From NCBI RefSeq assembly GCF_001307035.1, contig NZ_LKIU01000002.1:417088-481087 (forward strand): a stretch of 64,000 nucleotides of DNA, read 5' to 3'. The DNA is from Arthrobacter sp. Edens01 (lineage in GTDB: Bacteria; Actinomycetota; Actinomycetes; Actinomycetales; Micrococcaceae). The notes beneath the pieces were generated by a model. That model had not been told where the DNA came from. It saw nothing but the letters and a program-made list of their open reading frames with translations, and searched no databases. Every line of letters begins with the position of its first letter. Within the stretch, counting starts at the first letter, position 1. Made by a program: the position numbers and the translations under genes. Positions 800-12,614 of this stretch are shown here, piece by piece.

Positions 800-2914
800 G
801 TGGCACTGGACGTGCTTACCGACCTCAACAAGGTCCGCAACATCGGCATCATGGCGCACATTGATGCCGGCAAGACCACCACCACCGAGCGCATCCTGTT
901 CTACACCGGTGTCAACCACAAGATTGGCGAAACGCACGACGGCGCTTCGACCATGGACTGGATGGCACAGGAGCAGGAGCGGGGTATCACCATTACCTCC
1001 GCAGCTACCACGTGCTACTGGGACAACAACCAGATCAACATCATCGACACGCCGGGTCACGTTGACTTCACTGTCGAGGTTGAGCGGTCCCTGCGCGTGC
1101 TTGACGGCGCCGTAGCCGTATTCGACGGCAAGGAAGGCGTGGAGCCGCAGTCTGAGACTGTCTGGCGCCAGGCTGACAAGTACAACGTTCCGCGTATCTG
1201 CTTCGTCAACAAGATGGACAAGCTGGGCGCCGACTTCTACTTCACCGTCGACACCATCATCAACCGCCTTGGCGCCAAGCCGCTGGTCCTCCAGCTGCCG
1301 ATCGGTGCTGAAAGCGAATTCGAGGGCGTTGTTGACCTCCTCGAAATGCGTGCACTGACCTGGCGCGGCGACGCCAAGGGCGACGTGACCATGGGCGCCA
1401 AGTACGAAGTTGAGCCGATCCCCGCAGACCTGCAGGAAAAGGCCGAAGAGTACCGCGCCAAGCTCGTTGAAACCGTTGCCGAAGCCAGCGAAGAGCTGAT
1501 GGAAAAGTACCTCGAAGGTGAAGAACTCACCGTTGAGGAACTGAAGGCCGGTATCCGCAAGCTGACCGTCAACTCCGAGGTCTACCCGGTGCTGTGCGGT
1601 TCCGCGTTCAAGAACCGCGGCGTTCAGCCGATGCTTGACGCCGTCGTCGCCTTCCTGCCGTCCCCGCTCGATGTCCCGAACATCAAGGGCCACGACATCC
1701 GCGACGAAGAGGTCATCCTCGAACGCGCCGCTGACGCTGATGCTCCGTTCTCCGCACTGGCATTCAAGGTTGTGACGCACCCGTTCTTCGGCCGTCTGAC
1801 CTACATCCGCGTTTACTCCGGCAAGGCTGCTTCCGGCGCCCAGGTCATGAACTCGACCAAGCAGAAGAAGGAGCGCATCGGAAAGCTCTTCCAGATGCAC
1901 GCCAACAAGGAGAACCCGGTGGATGAAATCACCACCGGCCACATCTATGCAGCCATCGGCCTGAAGGATACGACCACGGGCGACACCCTGTGCGACCTTC
2001 AGAACCCGATCGTCCTGGAATCGATGAGCTTCCCCGAGCCCGTCATCTCCGTGGCAATCGAGCCGAAGACCAAGGGTGACCAGGAGAAGCTCTCCACGGC
2101 CATCCAGAAGCTCTCCGAAGAGGACCCGACCTTCCAGGTCTCCCTCGACGAAGACACCGGCCAGACGATCATCGCCGGCATGGGCGAGCTCCACCTGGAC
2201 ATCCTGGTGGACCGCATGCGCCGCGAGTTCAAGGTTGAGGCAAACGTGGGCAAGCCCCAGGTTGCCTACCGCGAAACGATTCGCCGTACGGTCGAGCGCT
2301 ACGACTACACGCACAAGAAGCAGACGGGTGGCTCCGGCCAGTTCGCAAAGATCCAGATTGCCATCGAGCCGCTGGATACTGCAGAAGGTGCGCTGTACGA
2401 GTTCGACAACAAGGTCACCGGTGGCCGTGTTCCGCGCGAGTACATCCCCTCCGTTGACCAGGGCATCCAGAGCGCCCTGAACGACGGCATCCTCGCCGGC
2501 TACCCGGTGGTGGGCATCAAGGCAACGCTGATTGACGGCGCTTACCACGATGTTGACTCCTCCGAAATGGCGTTCAAGATCGCCGGCCGCCAGGCTTTCA
2601 AGGAAGCTGCGAAGATGGCCAGCCCGGTTCTTCTGGAACCGATCATGGATGTCGAAGTCCGCACCCCTGAGGAATACATGGGTGAAGTCATCGGTGACAT
2701 CAACTCGCGCCGCGGGCAGATGCAGTCGATGGAAGACGCCAGCGGCGTGAAGGTCATTCGTGCCCTCGTTCCGCTGTCCGGCATGTTCGGGTACATCGGT
2801 GACCTGCGGTCCAAGACCCAGGGCCGCGCCGTTTACTCGATGCAGTTCAACAGCTACGCAGAGGTCCCGAAGGCAGTAGCCGACGAGATCATCCAGAAGA
2901 CGCGCGGCGAGTAA
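800..2914 (+). CDS. fusA: Elongation factor G
   Basis: A 704-residue translational GTPase that drives tRNA-mRNA translocation and, with RRF, ribosome recycling. The G1 loop [14 protein letters not shown] is near residue 20, G3 is DTPGHVD and G4 is NKMD. The domain IV/V stretches typical of EF-G follow, such as GGSGQFAKI and [15 protein letters not shown]. The GTG start at 800 is preceded by GGAG in 'agggagtaaccgtg' and matches the usual [10 protein letters not shown]-terminus of actinobacteria. It is the third gene of the str operon, 112 nt after rpsG. Length and motifs are full, so it is functional. An 810-codon antisense open frame across it is a codon-bias shadow. Confidence 0.99.
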
Positions 2915-2920
2915 GACCAA

Positions 2921-2950
2921 GCCGGCGTTCCGGACATCCGGAACGCCGGC
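2921..2950 (+). other. Perfect 14-bp hairpin after fusA
   Basis: GCCGGCGTTCCGGA, a CA loop, then TCCGGAACGCCGGC, beginning 7 nt after the fusA stop. The stem is perfect and very stable but has no U-tract. It may be a stability/processing element or a partial terminator separating fusA from the promoter of tuf. Confidence 0.65.
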
Positions 2951-3040
2951 CGTGTGTGGCCCGTCCTAAGGGGAAACCCGGACGGACGGGCCGCACGGCC
3001 AGACTGGGCGGGACCTGCGGGAACCGTGGCACAAGGCAAT

Positions 3041-3069
3041 TTCATCAAATAAACAGCCCCCAGTAGACT
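3041..3069 (+). promoter_or_regulatory. Candidate tuf promoter
   Basis: TTCATC (3041-3046), 17-nt spacer, TAGACT (3064-3069). The -10 fits the actinobacterial housekeeping consensus TANNNT well and the -35 is partial. It lies 66 nt before tuf, giving a plausible 5' UTR. An independent tuf promoter within the str operon is common. Confidence 0.5.
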
Positions 3070-3135
3070 TGTATCGGATCAGTTGCGAGAAGCGCGGCTG
3101 GTGATTGAGTCTTCTAACCTTTCTAGGAGGAACCC

Positions 3136-4326
3136 GTGGCGAAGGCAAAGTTCGAGCGGACTAAGCCGCACGTCAACATCGGCACCATTGGTCACGTTGA
3201 CCATGGAAAGACCACGTTGACCGCTGCCATTTCGAAGGTGCTTGCTGACAAGTACCCTGACCTGAACGAGCAGCGCGACTTCGCTGCTATTGACTCCGCG
3301 CCGGAAGAGCGCCAGCGCGGTATCACCATCAACATCTCGCACATTGAGTACCAGACCGAGAAGCGTCACTACGCACACGTTGACGCCCCGGGCCACGCTG
3401 ACTACATCAAGAACATGATCACCGGTGCTGCTCAGATGGACGGCGCAATCCTCGTGGTTGCCGCTACTGACGGCCCGATGGCTCAGACCCGCGAGCACGT
3501 TCTGCTGGCCCGCCAGGTTGGTGTTCCCTACCTGCTGGTCGCACTGAACAAGTCCGACATGGTTGAGGACGAAGAACTCCTCGACCTCGTGGAAATGGAA
3601 GTTCGCGAACTGCTGAGCTCCCAGGAGTTCGACGGCGACAACGCTCCCGTCGTTCGCGTTTCCGGCCTGAAGGCACTGGAAGGCGACCCCAAGTGGGTTG
3701 CGTCCGTCGAAGAACTGATGGAAGCCGTTGACAACAACGTTCCTGACCCCGTTCGCGACAAGGACAAGCCGTTCCTGATGCCGATCGAGGACGTCTTCAC
3801 CATCACCGGTCGTGGCACCGTTGTTACGGGCCGCGCCGAGCGCGGTACCCTCGCTATCAACTCCGAGGTCGAGATCGTTGGCATCCGCCCGATCCAGAAG
3901 ACCACGGTTACCGGTATCGAGATGTTCCACAAGCAGCTTGACGAAGCATGGGCCGGCGAGAACTGTGGCCTGCTGCTCCGCGGCATCAAGCGCGAAGACG
4001 TAGAGCGTGGCCAGGTTGTCGTGAAGCCGGGTTCCATCACCCCGCACACCGACTTCGAGGCCAACGTCTACATCCTGTCCAAGGATGAAGGCGGCCGCCA
4101 CAACCCGTTCTACTCGAACTACCGCCCGCAGTTCTACTTCCGCACCACCGACGTCACGGGTGTCATCACCCTGCCCGAGGGTACGGAAATGGTTATGCCC
4201 GGTGACAACACCGAAATGACCGTTGAACTGATCCAGCCGATCGCAATGGAAGAGGGCCTCGGCTTCGCTATCCGCGAAGGCGGCCGCACCGTTGGATCCG
4301 GCCGCGTCACCAAGATCATCAAGTAA
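3136..4326 (+). CDS. tuf: Elongation factor Tu
   Basis: A 396-residue GTPase that brings aminoacyl-tRNA to the ribosomal A site. G1 is [11 protein letters not shown]3 is DAPGHADY and G4 is NKSD; domain II carries [13 protein letters not shown] and the C-terminus is GRVTKIIK. The GTG start at 3136 has a near-perfect Shine-Dalgarno (AGGAGG, 5-6 nt spacing), in keeping with very high expression. It is the last gene of the str cluster. In many actinobacteria rpsJ follows closely, but here a minus-strand metabolic operon intervenes. Confidence 0.99.
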
Positions 4327-4367
4327 TTTGATCTATTGACGCTCGGACCATCCGGTTCAGCATTAAA

Positions 4368-4399
4368 GGGTCCCGCTGCTACGGCAGCGGGGCCCTTTT
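4368..4399 (+). terminator. Rho-independent terminator of tuf, shared with the convergent reductase gene
   Basis: Arms GGGTCCCGCTGC and GCAGCGGGGCCC around a TACG loop (one G-U-type mismatch), followed by TTTT. The stop codon of the minus-strand reductase gene (4379-4381) sits at the stem/loop boundary, so the convergent gene ends inside the terminator. The minus-strand side reads CCCTTTAAT after the stem, so it may work in both directions. Confidence 0.85.
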
Positions 4400-6490
4400 G
4401 CGTTCCCGGGTGACGCCGGCCAGCTGCTGCGCGACAGCTGTGCCGGCTTCCAGCCCCTGGGCGAAGGCGCGGACGGCGTTGAGTCCCGCGGCGGAGGCAG
4501 CACCGCCGATCACGGTGTGGGGCACGCCGGCGCGGCGAAGATCCCGCTGCAGGCGGGTGTTCTCCACCTGTCCCGCAGCGACAATGACCGCCTCCGCGGG
4601 GATGAGTTCCTCAGTGCCGCCGGCAGCGGTGATTTCAAGGCCGCCGGGAGCCAGCCCCCGGTAGCTCACGCCGGTGTACAGGCGGACCCCGGCGCTGCGC
4701 AGGGCCTGCAGTGCCGCCCAGCGCGTCGACGGTCCGATTCCTTCGCCGATGCGTCCGCCGCGGCGAAGCAGGGTGACGCACCGGCCGCCCGGCTGCGCGG
4801 TTCCGTCCCGCAGGTGTTCCCGCGCGAAACGTGCCCTTGCGGCATCCGTTGATTCCGGCCCGGAGCGGGGGAGTGCATGGGGCTGCAGGAGCAGGTGCGC
4901 CAGGTCCACGGCTATGCCTCCGGCGCCGACGACAGCGACCCGCCCGGGAAGAGCATCCGGGTCGGCGAACGCCTGGTGGTAGTCCAAAACGGGCACACCG
5001 CCGGAACCGGCCAGCCGGACTGCGCGGGGCAGGACACCGGTGGCGTCCAGCACGTGGTCGAAGCCGGCCAGGTGCACCGCACCGGCACGGAATCCGGTGC
5101 GGATCTTCACGCCCAGGCGGGGCAGTTCCACACTGAAATAACGGATTGTCTCGTCGAAGTCGGCTTTGCCGGGCACCAAACGGGCTAGGCGGAACTGCCC
5201 TCCCAGCTCCGCTTCGGCTTCGAAAAGGACTACTTGAATACCCGCGGCGGCCAGCGTGGCAGCAGCCTGCATTCCGGCAGGTCCACCACCGACTACAGCG
5301 GCACGTGCTCTGTCTCCGGAAATGCGCCCGGTTAAACGGAGGGCAGGATAGTCCAGTTCACGCCCGGCACGCGGATTCACCAGGCAGGAAACAGGTTCAG
5401 TTCCCAGCGACCTGTCGATGCACGCCTCATTGCAGGCAATACAGGTATTCACCAGATCCATCCGTCCGGCCTCGGTCTTCGCCAGGATCCGGGGATCCGC
5501 CAGAAACGGCCGCGCCATCGACACGAAGTCCACGGTTCCGTCCGTGAGCACAGCCTCCGCCTGGGCCACGGAGTTTATCCGGTTGGAACCAATCACCGGG
5601 ACGCTGAGTCCCTGCCCGCGCAGGTTCCTGCGGATCCGGCCGGCGACCGGCAGCCAGCTGCCGTGGGGTACCAGCGCCTGGACCGTTGGTGTCCGTGATT
5701 CATGCCAGCCGATGCCAATATTGAGTGCGTCGGCACCTGCGCGTGCCAGGGCCGCTGCCAGTGCCAGATGTTCCCTGGGCGGGCCGCTGCCTTCAACCAG
5801 GTCATCGCCGGACATCCGGAAGATTACCGGAAAGCCGGAGCCCGCTCCCTCACGGACTGCAGCCAGCACCGCCAGCGGAAATGCCTGACGGCGCTCCGCG
5901 TCTCCGCCCCATTCATCGTCCCGCAGGTTTGTCAGCGGGGAAGCGAACTGGTTGACCAGATAACCTTCGGAGCCCATGATTTCGACCGCATCAAAGCCCA
6001 GTTCACGGGCCAGCGACGCCGCGGCGGCGAAGTCCTGGACGGTGCGCGCGATGTCGGACTCGTTCATGGCACGCGGCAGGACGCTGGAATAGGCGGACCA
6101 CACAGCCGATGGCGCCAGTGGCTGCAGCCCGTAGGTGTCCTGGAAGCCGTAGCGCCCGGCGTGGAACAGCTGCAGGGCGAGCCGCCCGCCGGCGTCGTGC
6201 ACTGCCTCCAGCGCTGAGCGAGCGGCTTTGAGGAAAGGCTTTTCGGCGCTGACAAGGTAGGTACTGCCGCCGGAACCCTCCCGGTTGACGGCAGCACCTC
6301 CCGTGACGATCAGTGCCGCTCCGGCAGCAGCGCGCTCCCCGTAGAAGGCGGCGAGAGCCTGGGGATTGGACTCGAAGTTCAGATGCATGGAGCCCATGAT
6401 GATCCGGTGCGGCAGGGCGAGCCCGCCTATGCCGCCGGGTGAGAACACGTGCGGAAAGCTGCGGACTCCCAGCCGCGGATCATCGGGCAC
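4379..6490 (-). CDS. FadH-type 2,4-dienoyl-CoA reductase / NADH:flavin oxidoreductase
   Basis: A 703-residue three-domain flavo-iron-sulfur enzyme like E. coli FadH. The N-terminal old-yellow-enzyme barrel has MGSEGYLVNQF (Tyr177) and GIGWHESRTP (His263), matching the FadH catalytic Tyr and His. The 4Fe-4S cysteines are C350, C353, C357 and C369, with the same 2-3-11 spacing as FadH. An FAD/NAD(P) domain follows (VVGGGPAGMQAA). The GTG start at 6490 is chosen because GGAG lies about 10 nt upstream and the acyl-CoA dehydrogenase stop is only 10 nt away; an upstream open extension to 6607 overlaps that gene. Last gene of the operon. Given the EPSP-synthase-like partner, its substrate is inferred to be a cyclohexadienyl-carbonyl-CoA intermediate (AnsM-like role) rather than a fatty dienoyl-CoA. 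Confidence 0.85.
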   Translation of the reverse strand: MPDDPRLGVRSFPHVFSPGGIGGLALPHRIIMGSMHLNFESNPQALAAFYGERAAAGAALIVTGGAAVNREGSGGSTYLVSAEKPFLKAARSALEAVHDAGGRLALQLFHAGRYGFQDTYGLQPLAPSAVWSAYSSVLPRAMNESDIARTVQDFAAAASLARELGFDAVEIMGSEGYLVNQFASPLTNLRDDEWGGDAERRQAFPLAVLAAVREGAGSGFPVIFRMSGDDLVEGSGPPREHLALAAALARAGADALNIGIGWHESRTPTVQALVPHGSWLPVAGRIRRNLRGQGLSVPVIGSNRINSVAQAEAVLTDGTVDFVSMARPFLADPRILAKTEAGRMDLVNTCIACNEACIDRSLGTEPVSCLVNPRAGRELDYPALRLTGRISGDRARAAVVGGGPAGMQAAATLAAAGIQVVLFEAEAELGGQFRLARLVPGKADFDETIRYFSVELPRLGVKIRTGFRAGAVHLAGFDHVLDATGVLPRAVRLAGSGGVPVLDYHQAFADPDALPGRVAVVGAGGIAVDLAHLLLQPHALPRSGPESTDAARARFAREHLRDGTAQPGGRCVTLLRRGGRIGEGIGPSTRWAALQALRSAGVRLYTGVSYRGLAPGGLEITAAGGTEELIPAEAVIVAAGQVENTRLQRDLRRAGVPHTVIGGAASAAGLNAVRAFAQGLEAGTAVAQQLAGVTRERKRAPLP

Positions 6491-6500
6491 CGGGCTGCTC

Positions 6501-7715
6501 CTAACCCAGGTCCCCGCCCAGCAGGTCCCTGGCGATGACCGCCTTCTGGATCTCATTGGTGCCCTCTTCGAAGCGCTGCGCACGGGCGTCGCGGTAGACG
6601 CGCTCAATGGGCTGGGTCTGCCAGTAACCGATTCCGCCGTGCACCTGCAGGGCTTTGTCCGTGACCCGGGTGAGCATGTCCACGGCAGTCAGCTTGGCCA
6701 TGGAAGACAACGCCGCGGCACCCGGATCCGCGTCCTGCCATGCCGACGCTGCCGTGAGGGTGAGTGCCCGCGCAGCAGCGATGTCCGCCGCATTCTCCGC
6801 AAGACTGAAGGCTATTGCCTGCCGCGAAGTCAGCGGCTTGCCAAACGTGGTGCGCTGCCGGGCATAGTCAACGGCGAGCTGCTGGGCACGCTGCGCCAGG
6901 CCCACACAGCTCATGGCCACGGAGATGCGGCTTGGGGTGAGGAAACCGCCCAGGGCTACCGCCAATCCGTCCCCTTCGGCGCCAAGCCGGTTGGCCACAG
7001 GAACCGGGGCATCGGTAAAAGTCAGTGATGCATGGTCGGTGCCGTGCACTCCCATGGTCCGGGACGTATCCTCCACGACCGTGCCCGGCGTGTTCCGGTC
7101 CACGAGCAGGGCAACAGTGCCCCCGCGTCCCGTACTTCCCTCCAACCGGGCGAAGAGCAGCCAGTAGTCGCAGCGGACTCCGAATGTGATGAGGTGCTTG
7201 CGCCCGGTGAGGTAGTAGGTGTCGCCGTCACGGCGGACCGAAGAGGTAATGTCCACGCCGCTGCCGTTCGCCGGTTCGGTCAGCGTGAACGCCACCACGG
7301 ATTCCCCGGCCACCGCCGGAATAATGAACTTCTGCCGCTGCGTTTCGTCTGCGAACGGGTTCATGGCGCGCCACGTTCCGTTAAGCACGTGCACGATCAT
7401 CCGCACGGAGGCATGGGATCTGGAAAAGACTTCCATGAGGCCCATCCACTGCAGGAAACTAAGCCCCGCCCCGCCTAGGCTGCGCGGCGCGGCCAGGGAC
7501 AGGAAGCCTTCCCTTCGCAGCTCCTTCCACAGGTCATCGGAGACGCTTCCGGAGGACTCGATTTCCTCTGCCCAGGCCTCACCGGGCCCCTGGACCCAGT
7601 CCGTCACCCGGGCCAGCAGTTCCCGGTACTCGCCCTCCGGGATTGAACTTCCGCGTCCGTCTGCGGTCACGGTGCTGGAGATGACGCTGCTGGGGTTGAC
7701 GCTGCTGGTCTTCAC
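6501..7715 (-). CDS. Acyl-CoA dehydrogenase family protein
   Basis: A 404-residue FAD-dependent acyl-CoA dehydrogenase. It shows the usual order: N-terminal helices, a middle beta domain (FTLTEPANGSGVDI, GRKHLITFG) and a C-terminal four-helix domain (RTTFGKPLTSRQAI, QVHGGIGYW, RFEEGTNEIQKAVIARDLLG). The Glu of the EEGT motif is at the usual catalytic-base position. The GTG start at 7715 overlaps the fusion gene's stop as GTGA and has AGGAG 6 nt upstream, strong evidence for coupled translation; the open frame upstream to 7868 is discarded. In chc-type pathways a homologue acts on the ring-bearing CoA thioester during stepwise dehydration and reduction of shikimate. That role is inferred from context here. 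Confidence 0.88.
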   Translation of the reverse strand: MKTSSVNPSSVISSTVTADGRGSSIPEGEYRELLARVTDWVQGPGEAWAEEIESSGSVSDDLWKELRREGFLSLAAPRSLGGAGLSFLQWMGLMEVFSRSHASVRMIVHVLNGTWRAMNPFADETQRQKFIIPAVAGESVVAFTLTEPANGSGVDITSSVRRDGDTYYLTGRKHLITFGVRCDYWLLFARLEGSTGRGGTVALLVDRNTPGTVVEDTSRTMGVHGTDHASLTFTDAPVPVANRLGAEGDGLAVALGGFLTPSRISVAMSCVGLAQRAQQLAVDYARQRTTFGKPLTSRQAIAFSLAENAADIAAARALTLTAASAWQDADPGAAALSSMAKLTAVDMLTRVTDKALQVHGGIGYWQTQPIERVYRDARAQRFEEGTNEIQKAVIARDLLGGDLG

Positions 7716-10700
7716 GACTGGCTCCTGTCTGTTCCGGCAGAGGGATTCCCCGCTGCCTGCCGTGCCCGCTCCCGCAGCAGGAACTTCTGTACCTTTCCGA
7801 CCGGGTTGCGGGGAATGGCCTCGAGCAGTTCCAGCCGTTCCGGCCAATAGTGCTTGGACACCTGGCAACTGTCCAGATAGTCCGTGAGTTCCGCCAGGGT
7901 CGGTGCAGGGGTGCCCGGAGCCGGGACAACAAACGCGCAGGCACGCTCACCGAGCCGGGGGTCGGGCATGGCTGCCAGTGCGACGTCGTCCACGGACGGG
8001 TGCCGGTACAGCAGCTGTTCGATTTCGGCCACCGGGATCTTCTCCCCGCCGCGGTTGATTACGTCCCGAACCCGCCCCGTGATGCGCAGGTAGCCGGCGT
8101 CGTCGAGCGCGGCCAGGTCTCCCGTCCGGTACCAGCCGTCTTCGGTAAAGGCTTCCTTGGTGAGGTCCGGCCGGTCCAGGTAACCCTCGAACATGGTGGG
8201 GCTCAGCAGCTCGAAGTTGCCTTCCGTCCCCGGCGGCAGGAGCTGTCCGTTGTCGCTGACGATCCGGGCCCGCACACCGGGCAGCAGCTGTCCGTCCGTT
8301 CCCCAGACCAGGGCCGGGTCGCCCCCGGGGGAGGAGACCGCGCCAAGACAGGTTTCTGTGGTGCCGAACGCTCCGCAGACCCAGGCGCCGAGGACCCGGG
8401 TGGCCCGCTCGGCCAGATGGCGCGGGACGGCTGCACCGGTATTGACGAAAATCCGCAGGCTGGCAGGTGCCGGTGCCCCGGCTTCCACGGCCTTCACCAG
8501 GTCGCTGAGGAAGGGGGTGGCTGCCTGGACAAAGCTGCCTTTCCAACCCTGCAGCAGGTTCAGTGCCCGGTTCGGATCCCAGACCGGCTGCAGGATCTGG
8601 GGAATTCCCAGTACGAAGGAAAGCCACATTCCGTAGAGAAAGCCCGTCTGGTGAGCCAGTGGCGAAGGCACGAACACGGCGTCCTGCGGCTGCAGCCCAA
8701 GATGCCGGGCCTGCAGGGCGGCAGCCATGGAGAGGGTGGAATGCCGGTGCAGTACCCCTTTGGGTTCGCCTGTGGTGCCCGAGGTGAACAGCAGCTGGGC
8801 CGGGGCATCGGACGCCGGGGCCGCTGCATCGATTCGGGTACGGTCCACGAATGTCTCAGCGAGTGCCTGCTCCCAGGCGTGCCAGGTGAGGCCGCCGTCG
8901 GCCGGCGGCAGGGCGGGAGCGGCTGCGCCTATGACCACTGCATGGCGTACCGCGAGTTCATAGGCCGGATCCGCGCCGGTCCCGGAGGAAAGGATTCCGC
9001 GCAGTTCCTCCGCGTAGCGCCGGCCGCGGAATTCCTCCGGAACCACTACGACGGCGGCACGCGAGCGGTGGAGGGCAAAGGCGACTTCCCGTTCCCTGAA
9101 GATTGGCATAACGGGTGCAGCGACCGCTCCAATCCGCAGCACCGCTGCGGAGAGCAGGACGAACTCGGACCAGTTGGGCAACTGGAAAGCCACCCGGTCT
9201 CCGGGACGGACCCCCAGGTTCAGCAGAAGGGCCGCGGCCTGGTCGGCACCGGCGTCGAGCTCGGCCCAGGTAAGGTGCCCGTCCTCCCTCCCGTCTGTGA
9301 CCGCAGTCTGGTCCGGCCGTTCCGCCGCCCAGCGGCGGACCCAGTCCGCGCCGGTAACCGAGGCTGCCTCGTCCGGTGACAGGACCTGTTGCCGGTTCGC
9401 CTGGGCGCTGGCCGTGCGGCTGGTTTTCTGCCGCGGTACCGGGCCTTCCTGGACCTTCATGGGGAGCCCGAAGGAGTTCATCGCGTCCAGGAACTCCGGG
9501 TAGGAAATGCGGTAGGCGTTCGGATAGCTCAAGGTGCTGCGCCCCACTGCTCCGGAGGCAGCCACGGCCAGGGACATCAGGACCCGGTGATCGTTGAAGG
9601 AGGACAAATCTGCTGCAGTGAGCTGTTCCGTGCCGCTGACCAGCAGGTCGGTGCCTGAAATCCGGACCCCCGCGCCCATGGAGTTCAGCTGCAGCATGGC
9701 CGCTACCCGGTCCGATTCCTTCAGCCTCACGTGGCCCACGTTGCGGAAGATGCTTTCGCCGTCCGCGCAGGCAGCCATCGCGGACAGGACCGGCAGCATG
9801 TCAGGGACCGTCCGGCAGTCGATCTCCGCCGGCTGAAGCCTCAGCCCGTTGTGGCGAACGCGCACGCCGTCAGCCCCGGCGTCGTACTCCATGGGAAGCC
9901 CCATGGCCCCGGCAATATCCAGGAAGTCCGACTCGGGATGGTCGGCACCTCCTGCAGTGACGGACCGCAGTCCCTTCAACAGCAGGTCGGCGGGATGCAG
10001 GGCCGCCGCCGCGAGGCCAAAGGCGGCTGAACCAATGTCTTCCGGCATGCGCATGTCCGTGGGGAGTGCCTCCTGCTGCGGAGGTACTTCAAAGCGGTGC
10101 CAGTCATCGCGAACCTCTACCTCCAGGCCGAAGCGCCGCATCATGTTGACGGTCAGCTCCAGATACGTCCTCTCGTTGAGGGTTCCGTCCACCACCACAG
10201 AAGTGGGCCGGTCGGCAAACGGGGCAAGCAGGAGCAGGCCGGAGATCCACTGGGACAGCGTCCCGGCGATGTGGACCTCTCCACCTGAGGGGCGGCGGGC
10301 ACGGACCCGAATCGGCGGACAGCCGGTTGGTGAATCGACGTCGAGGCCCATATCCGTCAGCGCTGCCAGCAGCGGGCCGACTGGGCGCCGCTGGAAGTAC
10401 TTCTGGCCCGTTACGGTGACGTCGCTGGAGCCAAGGGCAGCCAGTCCCACCATGAAATACAGCGTGGTTCCGGAGCTCCCGGCCGAAACCTCGTTCCGGA
10501 CGGGACGGTAAGGCCCGCCGTGCACCACATAAGTGCCGCCGTCTATATCGATCCGGGTGCCGAGCAGGCGCAGCATGGCCACGGTGTAGTGGACGTGCCG
10601 GGCGTCCGTAAGACCGGTGATGCGGCTGATGCCGGGCGCCAGGGAAGCCAGGATCAGCGCCCGGTGGGCATGGTATTTCGAGTTGGGCACCTGTGCTTCA

Positions 10701-10741
10701 CCAAAGATGCGCTGCTGTGTTCCCAGGACTGAAAGATACAT
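7712..10741 (-). CDS. EPSP-synthase-like / cyclohexanecarboxylate-type acyl-CoA ligase fusion
   Basis: A 1009-residue two-domain protein. Residues 1-428 are an EPSP synthase (AroA) fold: SK at 21-22, R27, RRPVG 118-122, SQ 163-164, D314, LKESDR 340-345 and DHR 384-386 are kept. The lysine of the usual AK(S/T)(F/Y)P motif (E. coli K411, near PEP) is Ile412 here, and the GNAGT(A/T)MR segment reads GSSGTTLY. Residues about 429-465 form a linker. Residues about 466-1000 are an adenylate-forming CoA ligase with TSGTTGEPKG (653-662), FGTTE (792-796), YRTGD (871-875) and K983 in the C-terminal catalytic motif; it most resembles AliA-type cyclohexanecarboxylate ligases. Known chc pathways use an AroA homologue and a CoA ligase on shikimate, so this protein probably activates shikimate or a derivative and removes an oxygen function. 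First gene of its operon; GAAGG precedes the ATG. Confidence 0.85.
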   Translation of the reverse strand: MYLSVLGTQQRIFGEAQVPNSKYHAHRALILASLAPGISRITGLTDARHVHYTVAMLRLLGTRIDIDGGTYVVHGGPYRPVRNEVSAGSSGTTLYFMVGLAALGSSDVTVTGQKYFQRRPVGPLLAALTDMGLDVDSPTGCPPIRVRARRPSGGEVHIAGTLSQWISGLLLLAPFADRPTSVVVDGTLNERTYLELTVNMMRRFGLEVEVRDDWHRFEVPPQQEALPTDMRMPEDIGSAAFGLAAAALHPADLLLKGLRSVTAGGADHPESDFLDIAGAMGLPMEYDAGADGVRVRHNGLRLQPAEIDCRTVPDMLPVLSAMAACADGESIFRNVGHVRLKESDRVAAMLQLNSMGAGVRISGTDLLVSGTEQLTAADLSSFNDHRVLMSLAVAASGAVGRSTLSYPNAYRISYPEFLDAMNSFGLPMKVQEGPVPRQKTSRTASAQANRQQVLSPDEAASVTGADWVRRWAAERPDQTAVTDGREDGHLTWAELDAGADQAAALLLNLGVRPGDRVAFQLPNWSEFVLLSAAVLRIGAVAAPVMPIFREREVAFALHRSRAAVVVVPEEFRGRRYAEELRGILSSGTGADPAYELAVRHAVVIGAAAPALPPADGGLTWHAWEQALAETFVDRTRIDAAAPASDAPAQLLFTSGTTGEPKGVLHRHSTLSMAAALQARHLGLQPQDAVFVPSPLAHQTGFLYGMWLSFVLGIPQILQPVWDPNRALNLLQGWKGSFVQAATPFLSDLVKAVEAGAPAPASLRIFVNTGAAVPRHLAERATRVLGAWVCGAFGTTETCLGAVSSPGGDPALVWGTDGQLLPGVRARIVSDNGQLLPPGTEGNFELLSPTMFEGYLDRPDLTKEAFTEDGWYRTGDLAALDDAGYLRITGRVRDVINRGGEKIPVAEIEQLLYRHPSVDDVALAAMPDPRLGERACAFVVPAPGTPAPTLAELTDYLDSCQVSKHYWPERLELLEAIPRNPVGKVQKFLLRERARQAAGNPSAGTDRSQS

Positions 10742-10926
10742 GGCACCGATGCCCTTCGAACAGCTGTCCTTTTCAGGCGGCCACCCCGCTTGCCGACGCT
10801 ACCAGCTGGGTTCCGGAGCCGGAACAGACCAGCCTCCCGGCACGCTGGGGACCGGCCAATCCGCCCGGCCCTTTTCGGTGCGGGGGAGGACCGGGGAGGG
10901 CGGGGAGAAGAGAGTCCGGGAGTGCG

Positions 10927-10956
10927 CTGACACACTGCAGCCCGCTCCGTTAGGCT
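10927..10956 (+). promoter_or_regulatory. Candidate leaderless promoter
   Basis: CTGACA (10927-10932), 18-nt spacer, TAGGCT (10951-10956), then 6 nt to an ATG at 10963. This spacing puts the transcription start at or next to the ATG, the usual arrangement of leaderless actinobacterial genes. Confidence 0.55.
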
Positions 10957-10962
10957 CGGGAG

Positions 10963-11091
10963 ATGGAACTTCTTATCTTCTTGGTCATCGCGGTGGTTGT
11001 TATTGGCGGCGTAGCGTGGGGCAAGCGGCACTTCTCCCATGAGATTGACCGGGCCAAGCGGATCCGCCGGGCAAACCGCCGCGACACGTAG
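10963..11091 (+). CDS. Small single-pass membrane protein (42 aa)
   Basis: A 42-residue frame: an N-terminal hydrophobic helix (MELLIFLVIAVVVIGGVAWG) followed by a strongly basic tail rich in Arg and Lys that would stay in the cytoplasm. A GGGAG lies directly against the ATG, too close for a normal ribosome site, while a -35/-10 pair sits exactly where a leaderless message would need it. It lies alone between the divergent metabolic operon and the rpsJ leader. I do not recognise the family. Short helix-plus-basic-tail proteins of this kind are common in actinobacteria; the function is unknown. Confidence 0.55.
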   Translation: MELLIFLVIAVVVIGGVAWGKRHFSHEIDRAKRIRRANRRDT

Positions 11092-11632
11092 GCCATTCCC
11101 GGAGAGCCCCCACCGGGCCGCGGAATGTTCAGCATGGCCCGGCGGCTGATTTTAGCCGTGAACAGTGCTGGGCTAGACTGATAGAAAATGACGCGCCATG
11201 AATCGGGCAATCCCGGTTCGCGGCAACTCCATATGCTAAAAGCCACAAACAGAAGGTGGACGCTGATTCGCGTTCTGCCGGAAGATCTGGCAGACTAGAG
11301 AAGTTGTTCAAGCGCTTTTGTGCCCGCACGCGCTTCAGCAGGCCGCTAACGCGGCACTGTGTGCGTGATGAGATTGCGTCCCGGTCAGGATAATGCCTGG
11401 CGCAGGGTCGGATCCTTCAGGGGAAAAGCCCATATATAACCCGCCCCCATTCTTGAACGGGTGTTGCCAGTTTCGAATCTGCGACACGCCCGAGCGCGGG
11501 GGTCGGAGCCTCGGCAGGTTGAGGAACCCGGAGCTTCCGGATTCAGCTTGTTGGAGGAGCGCCGGGGCCAACATGGCCGCCAGGGGCAAAAACTGTACAG
11601 AGAGCAATACTCGAAGAAAGAGGCACGACGCC
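11092..11632 (+). other. Long non-coding leader/intergenic region upstream of rpsJ
   Basis: These 541 nt hold no convincing gene. A candidate -10 TAGACT lies at 11173-11178 with a poor -35 (TTTAGC/TTAGCC) 16-17 nt upstream. An AT-rich stretch with TATATAA near 11431 breaks the otherwise GC-rich leader. The region ends in a purine-rich ribosome-binding area before rpsJ. It probably contains the S10 operon promoter(s) and a long 5' UTR, but no known r-protein leader fold could be assigned by eye. Confidence 0.5.
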
Positions 11633-11941
11633 ATGGCGGGACAAAAAATCCGCATCCGGCTGAAGTCGTATGACCACGAGGTCATCGACGTATCAGCACG
11701 GAAGATCGTTGAGACGGTCACGCGTGCAGGCGCAACGGTAGTAGGCCCCGTGCCGCTGCCCACGGAAAAGAACGTGTACTGCGTTATCCGTTCGCCGCAC
11801 AAGTACAAGGACAGCCGCGAGCACTTTGAAATGCGCACGCACAAGCGTCTGATCGACATCATTGACCCCACGCCTAAGGCCGTTGACTCGCTGATGCGTC
11901 TTGACCTGCCTGCAGACGTGAACATCGAAATCAAGCTGTAG
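11633..11941 (+). CDS. rpsJ: 30S ribosomal protein S10
   Basis: A 102-residue protein, [19 protein letters not shown] to DVNIEIKL, of standard S10 length. S10 is in the head of the 30S subunit and also serves as NusE in transcription antitermination. The open frame reaches back to 11393, but ATG 11633 gives the conserved N-terminus. First gene of the S10 operon, 17 nt before rplC. Confidence 0.98.
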
Positions 11942-11957
11942 GGGGGAGCAGATAATT

Positions 11958-12614
11958 ATGTCTTCTTCACTTACCCGCCAGGTTAAGGGCCTCCTGGGCA
12001 CCAAGCTGGGCATGACCCAGGTCTGGGACGAGAACAACAAGCTCATCCCCGTCACCGTGGTCCAGGCTGATTCCAACGTCATCACCCAGCTGCGCAATGC
12101 GGAGAAGGACGGCTACACCGCCGTTCAGATCGGCTACGGCCAGATCGATCCCCGCAAGGTAACCAAGCCGCTGGCCGGCCACTTCGAGAAGGCCGGCGTT
12201 ACGCCTCGCCGTCACGTTGTTGAGCTGCGCACCGCTGACGCTGACACCTACGAGCTCGGCCAGGAACTCTCTGTTGAGATGTTCGAAGCCGGCCAGAAGG
12301 TCGACGTCGTCGGTACCTCCAAGGGCAAGGGCTTCGCCGGTGTCATGAAGCGTCATGGCTTCCACGGCGTTGGCGCTTCCCACGGTGCCCACAAGAACCA
12401 CCGCAAGCCCGGTTCCATCGGTGGCGCATCCACCCCCGGCCGCGTCTTCAAGGGTCTCCGGATGGCCGGCCGCATGGGCGCCGTCCGCCACACCACGATG
12501 AACCTCACCGTCCACGCTGTGGATACCGAGAAGTCGCTGCTGCTGATCAAGGGTGCCGTTCCCGGCGCCCGCGGCCAGGTCGTCCTCGTACGCACCGCCG
12601 TGAAGGGAGCTTAG
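11958..12614 (+). CDS. rplC: 50S ribosomal protein L3
   Basis: A 218-residue L3 with the [18 protein letters not shown]-terminus and the central loop [22 protein letters not shown], which reaches toward the peptidyl-transferase centre. L3 is an early 50S assembly initiator. A GGGGGGAG ribosome site precedes ATG 11958. Second in the S10 operon, 4 nt before rplD. Confidence 0.98.

Follow-up and report, generated by a model that had tools for sequence, protein, structure and literature searches.

Arthrobacter sp. Edens01 carries, in the 64,000-nucleotide window analysed here (contig NZ_LKIU01000002.1, positions 417,088 to 481,087), a compact operon of three minus-strand genes located between tuf and rpsJ, which is examined as a candidate part of a route from shikimate to cyclohexanecarboxyl-coenzyme A (CHC-CoA). 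The first gene, JK (7712..10741, 1009 aa, ATG start), encodes a protein of the plmJK type in which a 5-enolpyruvylshikimate-3-phosphate (EPSP)-synthase-like domain is fused to an acyl-CoA ligase. It is followed by L (6501..7715, 404 aa from GTG), an acyl-CoA dehydrogenase-family protein of the plmL type, and by M (4379..6490, 703 aa from GTG), an old-yellow-enzyme/FadH-type flavoprotein of the plmM type with a 4Fe-4S-type cysteine pattern. In the list of open reading frames (ORFs) L and M begin at upstream TTG codons (455 and 742 aa, respectively); the GTG starts used here fit the gene spacing, with GTGA common to the JK stop and the L start and 10 nt from the L stop to the M start. An earlier reading made from the sequence alone had described three coupled genes with this overlap, this gap and these domains, and both the coordinates and Pfam agree: JK matches EPSP_synthase (residues 9-421, 247.8 bits) and AMP-binding (469-855), then the AMP-binding C-terminal domain; L matches the N-terminal, middle and C-terminal acyl-CoA dehydrogenase domains, and M matches Oxidored_FMN and Pyr_redox_2.

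The AroA-like domain of JK (residues 1-430, 9452..10741) departs from EPSP synthases at the substrate site. At the equivalents of E. coli positions 23, 49, 100, 169 and 197, the nine AroA sequences agree on S, D, R, S and S, which are replaced by Y, H, Y, L and E in every one of the 81 JK rows; S23, D49, R100, S169 and S197 are thus kept in 0/81 JK rows. S169 and S197 presumably contact the phosphate of shikimate 3-phosphate, and the roles of the other site residues are likewise assumed here. A phosphorylated substrate would be less well accepted with an acidic side chain at 197, which would fit shikimate itself as the substrate. Residues common to both sets are K22, R27, G96, R124, S170, Q171, E341, R344, D384, H385 and R386, among which Glu341 is presented as an acid/base of E. 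coli EPSP synthase in passages of PMC7144000. In the phylogenetic tree the JK domains form their own clade (22 rows, support 100/100) separate from true AroA; the E. coli AroA row has a long branch and an uncertain position, which keeps the AroA rows from forming a single group. A grouping with true EPSP synthases, which the sequence-only reading had named as grounds for abandoning it, was therefore not obtained, and on residue replacements and tree a true EPSP synthase was rejected. The AlphaFold2 model of the domain (pLDDT 90.8) has EPSP synthases as all ten of its best PDB matches (TM 0.82-0.87), a likeness of predicted fold, not of function. With 295.8 bits the domain also scores above the NCBIfam aroA cut-off (287.25 bits) and therefore can be misnamed a true EPSP synthase, a warning for automatic annotation. 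Genomes with JK may carry two annotated EPSP synthases; that of Edens01 also encodes a true AroA plus two MurA.

The ligase domain of JK (residues 466-1009, 7715..9346) has cyclohexanecarboxylate-CoA ligase as its best NCBIfam match, at 446 bits and under the cut-off of 792.3, and L resembles cyclohexane-carbonyl-CoA dehydrogenases, also under the cut-off; against catabolic families, every score of the ligase, L and M lies below the curated threshold. The motif (F/Y)EEG(T/P)NE, whose glutamate we take to be the putative catalytic residue, occurs in L of Edens01 and in all 70 L proteins linked to JK in the set of named loci described below. The pattern C-x2-C-x3-C-x(10-13)-C is likewise present in M of Edens01 and in 59 of the 60 linked M matches, the exception being one of two pieces in locus L142.

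A ChcA-type reductase is encoded in the genome, outside the operon. No ChcA gene lies between L and M; when the ChcA of an operon linked to a polyketide synthase (PKS) in genome G303 was used as query against the Edens01 genome, one protein was found at 65% identity (E 2e-115), the other 30 matches having E 2e-32 or weaker. Loss of ChcA from the genome is ruled out by this second place. There, ChcA, a second acyl-CoA ligase (Lig2) and a FabF-type ketosynthase (KAS) form one run at about G000:C5:705,408-709,189. The best NCBIfam model for this ChcA is the enoyl-acyl carrier protein (ACP) reductase FabL, under its cut-off, and the Y-x6-K pattern occurs in it and, by a strict expression, in 47 of the 55 ChcA of the named loci. 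The order ChcA-Lig2-KAS was found in 20/20 loci read, which comprise 18 of the 19 JK-positive genus relatives (the nineteenth, G026, was left out), G010 and G032. Genes for a TetR-like protein and a small cupin are divergent from ChcA in Edens01 (L084:14100-15150) and in 4 of the 20 relatives read. The sequence-only reading, in which the operon makes an alicyclic carboxyl-CoA, is supported in part; the three-gene operon by itself is incomplete, ChcA together with a second CoA ligase and a ketosynthase being in the second operon.

The two loci occur together in the genus. Full-length JK was detected in 19 of 28 genus relatives and in 0 of 30 other relatives, and ChcA (E at most 1e-60) in 19/19 JK-positive genus relatives, in one of the nine JK-negative ones (G010) and, outside the genus, in 1/30 (G032). 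Within the genus this corresponds to a Fisher p of 2.9e-6, uncorrected for relatedness. In evenly drawn samples full-length JK is rare, with 3 of 394 genomes of the class (Edens01 included) and 5 of 396 genomes of the order; the latter include Edens01 and two congeners, and the remaining two have JK-L-ChcA-M (G818) and JK-L-ChcA-M-KAS (G707).

A wider view was obtained by scanning named genomes with an alignment of the AroA domain, the best 80 of 186 relatives being taken as the named loci, many of which end at contig ends. JK occurs, among others, in Arthrobacter, Cellulomonas, Sinomonas, Specibacter, Paenarthrobacter, Microbacterium and Homoserinimonas, in Streptomyces, Kitasatospora, Actinoplanes and Lentzea, and in metagenome-assembled genomes (MAGs) labelled Eremiobacterota, Gammaproteobacteria and Solirubrobacterales. 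Both JK domains are in view in 79 named loci, of which 74 have them in one frame and five show a frame change or stop; L accompanies JK in 70 of the 80 loci, ChcA in 55, M in 59 and KAS in 18. Seven loci, all from Streptomyces, have JK-L-ChcA-M-KAS-Lig2 as one run, which makes the Arthrobacter layout look like a single gene set that has been divided. JK-L-M without ChcA was found in 12 named loci (10 Arthrobacter, 2 Cellulomonas), and all of them have ChcA elsewhere in the genome; three of five further genomes searched for ChcA have one. In both Cellulomonas a second locus groups ChcA, a Lig2 relative (73%) and KAS. Arthrobacter wenxiniae, Specibacter, Paenarthrobacter and relatives (L137-L141, L143) show JK-L-ChcA with no M detected alongside. 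Four gammaproteobacterial MAG bins (L184, L190, L195, L200) contain JK relatives at 58-61%, three of which have their two domains in different frames; their presence on these contigs may reflect transfer or a binning error. Scans of viral contigs with L and of a plasmid collection with the AroA domain gave no relative and no match at 1e-60, respectively.

A condensing enzyme is often attached to these genes, and in Arthrobacter it is the FabF-type KAS. This protein has 42% identity to the other FabF of Edens01, whereas 31 of the 49 JK-positive named genomes have a counterpart at 58-81%, so that a distinct ketosynthase co-occurs with JK both in the genus and in these genomes; its role in an omega-cyclohexyl system is putative. 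The residues C-H-H are present in the Edens01 copy and, by a strict expression, in 14 of the 18 linked ones. Fourteen of these 18 lie downstream of M and four are divergent upstream. Within the DNA examined, some ketosynthase-like gene was found in 35 of the 80 named loci (18 KAS, 3 with a strong PKS match, 14 another ketosynthase). The 49 genomes contain 50 loci, 17 with a linked KAS, 15 with an unlinked one and 18 with none; the last group has three loci beside a PKS (JK-L-ChcA-M in L165 and L193, JK-L-ChcA with no M seen in L166), four near a different ketosynthase-like gene (three Eremiobacterota, one Lentzea) and 11 with no such gene in view. In Eremiobacterota MAGs the different gene (33-35% to KAS) is located just upstream of JK (L170:1520-2686, L178:5419-6606, L179:8723-9931), and weaker ketosynthase-like matches occur in further loci labelled Eremiobacterota and Gammaproteobacteria. 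A PKS-type ketosynthase directly follows JK-L-ChcA-M-KAS in two Streptosporangiaceae loci (L180:19351-20691, L194:19302-20708), possibly natural-product clusters. Mutual exclusion of KAS and PKS was considered and rejected, as the five named loci with a PKS-type ketosynthase in the DNA examined comprise three without and two with KAS.

The Edens01 loci do not have the make-up of a starter-unit cluster, in which a PKS adjoins these genes: a PKS query had no match in the 64-kb window, as the sequence-only reading had proposed, and in 38 kb around ChcA it matched KAS alone. A PKS reading frame of 3362 aa lies next to JK, L, ChcA and M in G303 (8.5 Mb), and the JK proteins of G303 and Edens01 share 61-62% identity over nearly their whole length.

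The surroundings of the operon are conserved in the genus. A survey of the interval between tuf (EF-Tu; 3136..4326, plus strand) and rpsJ (ribosomal protein S10; 11633..11941, plus strand), which the sequence-only reading had suggested, gave tuf-M-L-JK-rpsJ, with JK-L-M in order, in 17/17 genus loci read at full length, at identities of 67-85% for JK, 80-87% for L and 59-73% for M; the genes therefore are no chance ORF set, and that explanation was discarded. The nearest named relatives fit the Arthrobacter-like host that had been proposed. Between JK and rpsJ, 16 of the 17 loci have a membrane protein of ~1750 aa, where Edens01 has just a 42-aa membrane-type ORF (10963..11091, plus strand) with no Pfam family. 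The ~1750-aa protein (L059-L074, L317-L324) is multi-pass, and two copies, one tested against each collection, gave no NCBIfam or Pfam match. It is also found in the tuf-rpsJ interval of eight of the nine JK-negative relatives (5.1-6.8 kb), and in the ninth, G021, the interval is 742 bp with none of the queried genes inside. JK-L-M was therefore gained or lost as a block beside tuf. In Sinomonas susongensis JK-L-ChcA-M is located 1.8 kb from tuf, and hence ChcA may once have been at the tuf site too. Rfam gave no match in positions 2900-12500 of the window, nor did a sigma-70/terminator scan of positions 10600-11700.

Gene content and order, orthology, co-occurrence and the divergence of the active site are observed in these genomes, and from them the operon is probably one half of a complete-looking pathway from shikimate to CHC-CoA, divided over two loci and supplying a ketosynthase of its own, possibly towards omega-cyclohexyl fatty acids. 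The fusion of an AroA-like protein to an acyl-CoA ligase, the linkage of L and M in order, orthology and phylogeny support well the assignment to an alicyclic carboxyl-CoA from shikimate already made in the sequence-only reading. The individual reactions are assigned by homology, and the end product and its use are proposals. The AroA-like domain would bind shikimate and remove water by conjugate elimination, with no enolpyruvyl transfer, and the fused ligase would form the thioester with CoA. Ring reductions alternating with dehydrations would then lead to CHC-CoA or a near relative through three enzymes: M, of the dienoyl-CoA-reductase type, L, of the acyl-CoA-dehydrogenase family, and ChcA, of the enoyl-reductase type. 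KAS, encoded with ChcA and the second ligase, may take CHC-CoA or CHC-ACP and elongate it, the ring thereby priming omega-cyclohexyl fatty acids. Since the other half of the pathway lies beside a chain-lengthening enzyme, the ring may serve unusual lipids and no antibiotic. Taken by itself, this lipid fate has a chance slightly below even, lowered from even because the exclusion of KAS and PKS was not borne out.

Several observations weigh against this interpretation. The co-occurrence of the two loci lies within one genus and is uncorrected for relatedness. The second operon may have its own use, and ChcA-Lig2-KAS exists without JK in G010 (L126) and G032 (L125). The KAS orthologue is absent from 18 of the 49 JK-positive named genomes, two Sinomonas included, and the KAS rows lie on one side of a branch with support 73/98. 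Streptosporangium saharense and Sinosporangium album carry, ~1.1 kb beyond a linked KAS, a PKS-type ketosynthase (39-41%, 294-299 bits). Phosphoenolpyruvate (PEP) may be bound by the AroA-like domain, in which the equivalents of K22, R27, R124, E341, R344 and R386 are kept. Finally, the likeness to the plm cluster is one of gene types and order, and that to the ans cluster one of gene types, the sequences having been compared with other Streptomyces and actinobacterial loci. Where it occurs without JK, ChcA-Lig2-KAS may be a relic or may use an externally supplied acid.

A different outcome would be a distinct shikimate-derived ring acid (a cyclohexenyl, cyclohexadienyl or benzoyl-type CoA), released or built into a small molecule, instead of CHC-CoA for lipids. 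The position of ChcA outside the genus operon would allow the three-gene unit to function independently; among its genes M varies most within the genus (59-73%), and two KAS-bearing operons of Streptosporangiaceae adjoin a PKS-type ketosynthase. This outcome is nevertheless unlikely, given that ChcA is retained elsewhere in all 19 JK-positive genus relatives and in both Cellulomonas of the same layout. Catabolism of imported shikimate or cyclohexane carboxylic acids is much less probable. It would account for the best match of the ligase and for the resemblance of L, both of which are enzyme types of the bad-ali route in the passages of PMC9795900; their scores, however, are under the curated cut-offs, same-order orthologues adjoin polyketide synthases, and visual inspection of the adjoining genes (tuf, rpsJ), made with no family search, showed no BadK/H/I-type gene. 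A plain beta-oxidation operon was rejected on gene order and fusion. An accidental fusion, in such an operon, of a redundant EPSP synthase (the AroA domain) to a fatty-acid ligase is scarcely credible despite the aroA cut-off passed and the several PEP-site residues kept (roles that we assume), considering the separate true AroA in the genome, the distinct and fully supported JK clade, the five residues invariant in nine AroA and replaced in every JK row, and the recurrence of the fusion followed by L in Actinomycetota and Eremiobacterota.

The route from shikimate to CHC-CoA makes starter units of antibiotics and, as labelling has indicated, omega-cyclohexyl lipids in a few bacteria. In the genomes described here it would occur with no PKS nearby, in culturable mesophilic actinobacteria and with a recurrent ketosynthase and ligase. 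A long-standing question, that of the genes behind omega-cyclohexyl lipids in mesophiles, therefore becomes directly testable by gene deletion in Arthrobacter. As a tentative generalization, with somewhat less than half the weight of belief behind it, a six-gene system without PKS (JK, L, ChcA, M, the FabF-type KAS and the second ligase) may lead from shikimate to cyclohexyl-primed lipids via a dedicated ketosynthase in mesophilic actinobacteria, split over two loci in Arthrobacter and Cellulomonas; Eremiobacterota and MAGs assigned to Gammaproteobacteria also have JK relatives. If true, this would supply the genes behind omega-cyclohexyl lipids in organisms from which the literature read has no report of them.

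Among known systems, ansJKLM-chcA of the ansatrienin cluster presumably comprises the same enzyme types as the operon plus ChcA. In that cluster J and K are separate genes and a PKS is adjacent. Among the matches listed in open-licence literature no title or abstract ties these genes to Arthrobacter, which is weak evidence of novelty. The bad-ali route, which degrades cyclohexane carboxylate (PMC9795900, in part), shares the CoA ligase and acyl-CoA dehydrogenase families with the operon and runs in the opposite, degrading direction; the passages concerned name neither an AroA-like protein nor ChcA. In the lactomycin/phoslactomycin clusters of Streptomyces, plmJK, plmL, ChcA and plmM are placed in this order (table 2 of PMC5852498). 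The Arthrobacter genes are alike in type (fused AroA-like/ligase, acyl-CoA dehydrogenase, ChcA, flavin mononucleotide oxidoreductase) and, apart from ChcA, in order. They differ in that a separate locus houses ChcA, together with a ligase and a FabF-type KAS, and in that the neighbourhood lacks a PKS. As to the lipids, passages of PMC3035248 give omega-cyclohexyl fatty acids in Alicyclobacillus, the type strain having about 51% C17:0 and 33% C19:0, and cite a 1972 title on their formation from shikimate, and PMC5023266, in the part concerned, places them in Curtobacterium pusillum and Propionibacterium cyclohexanicum. Fatty acids with a cyclohexyl ring from shikimate, as in these three, are the fate proposed here for the product of the two Arthrobacter loci.

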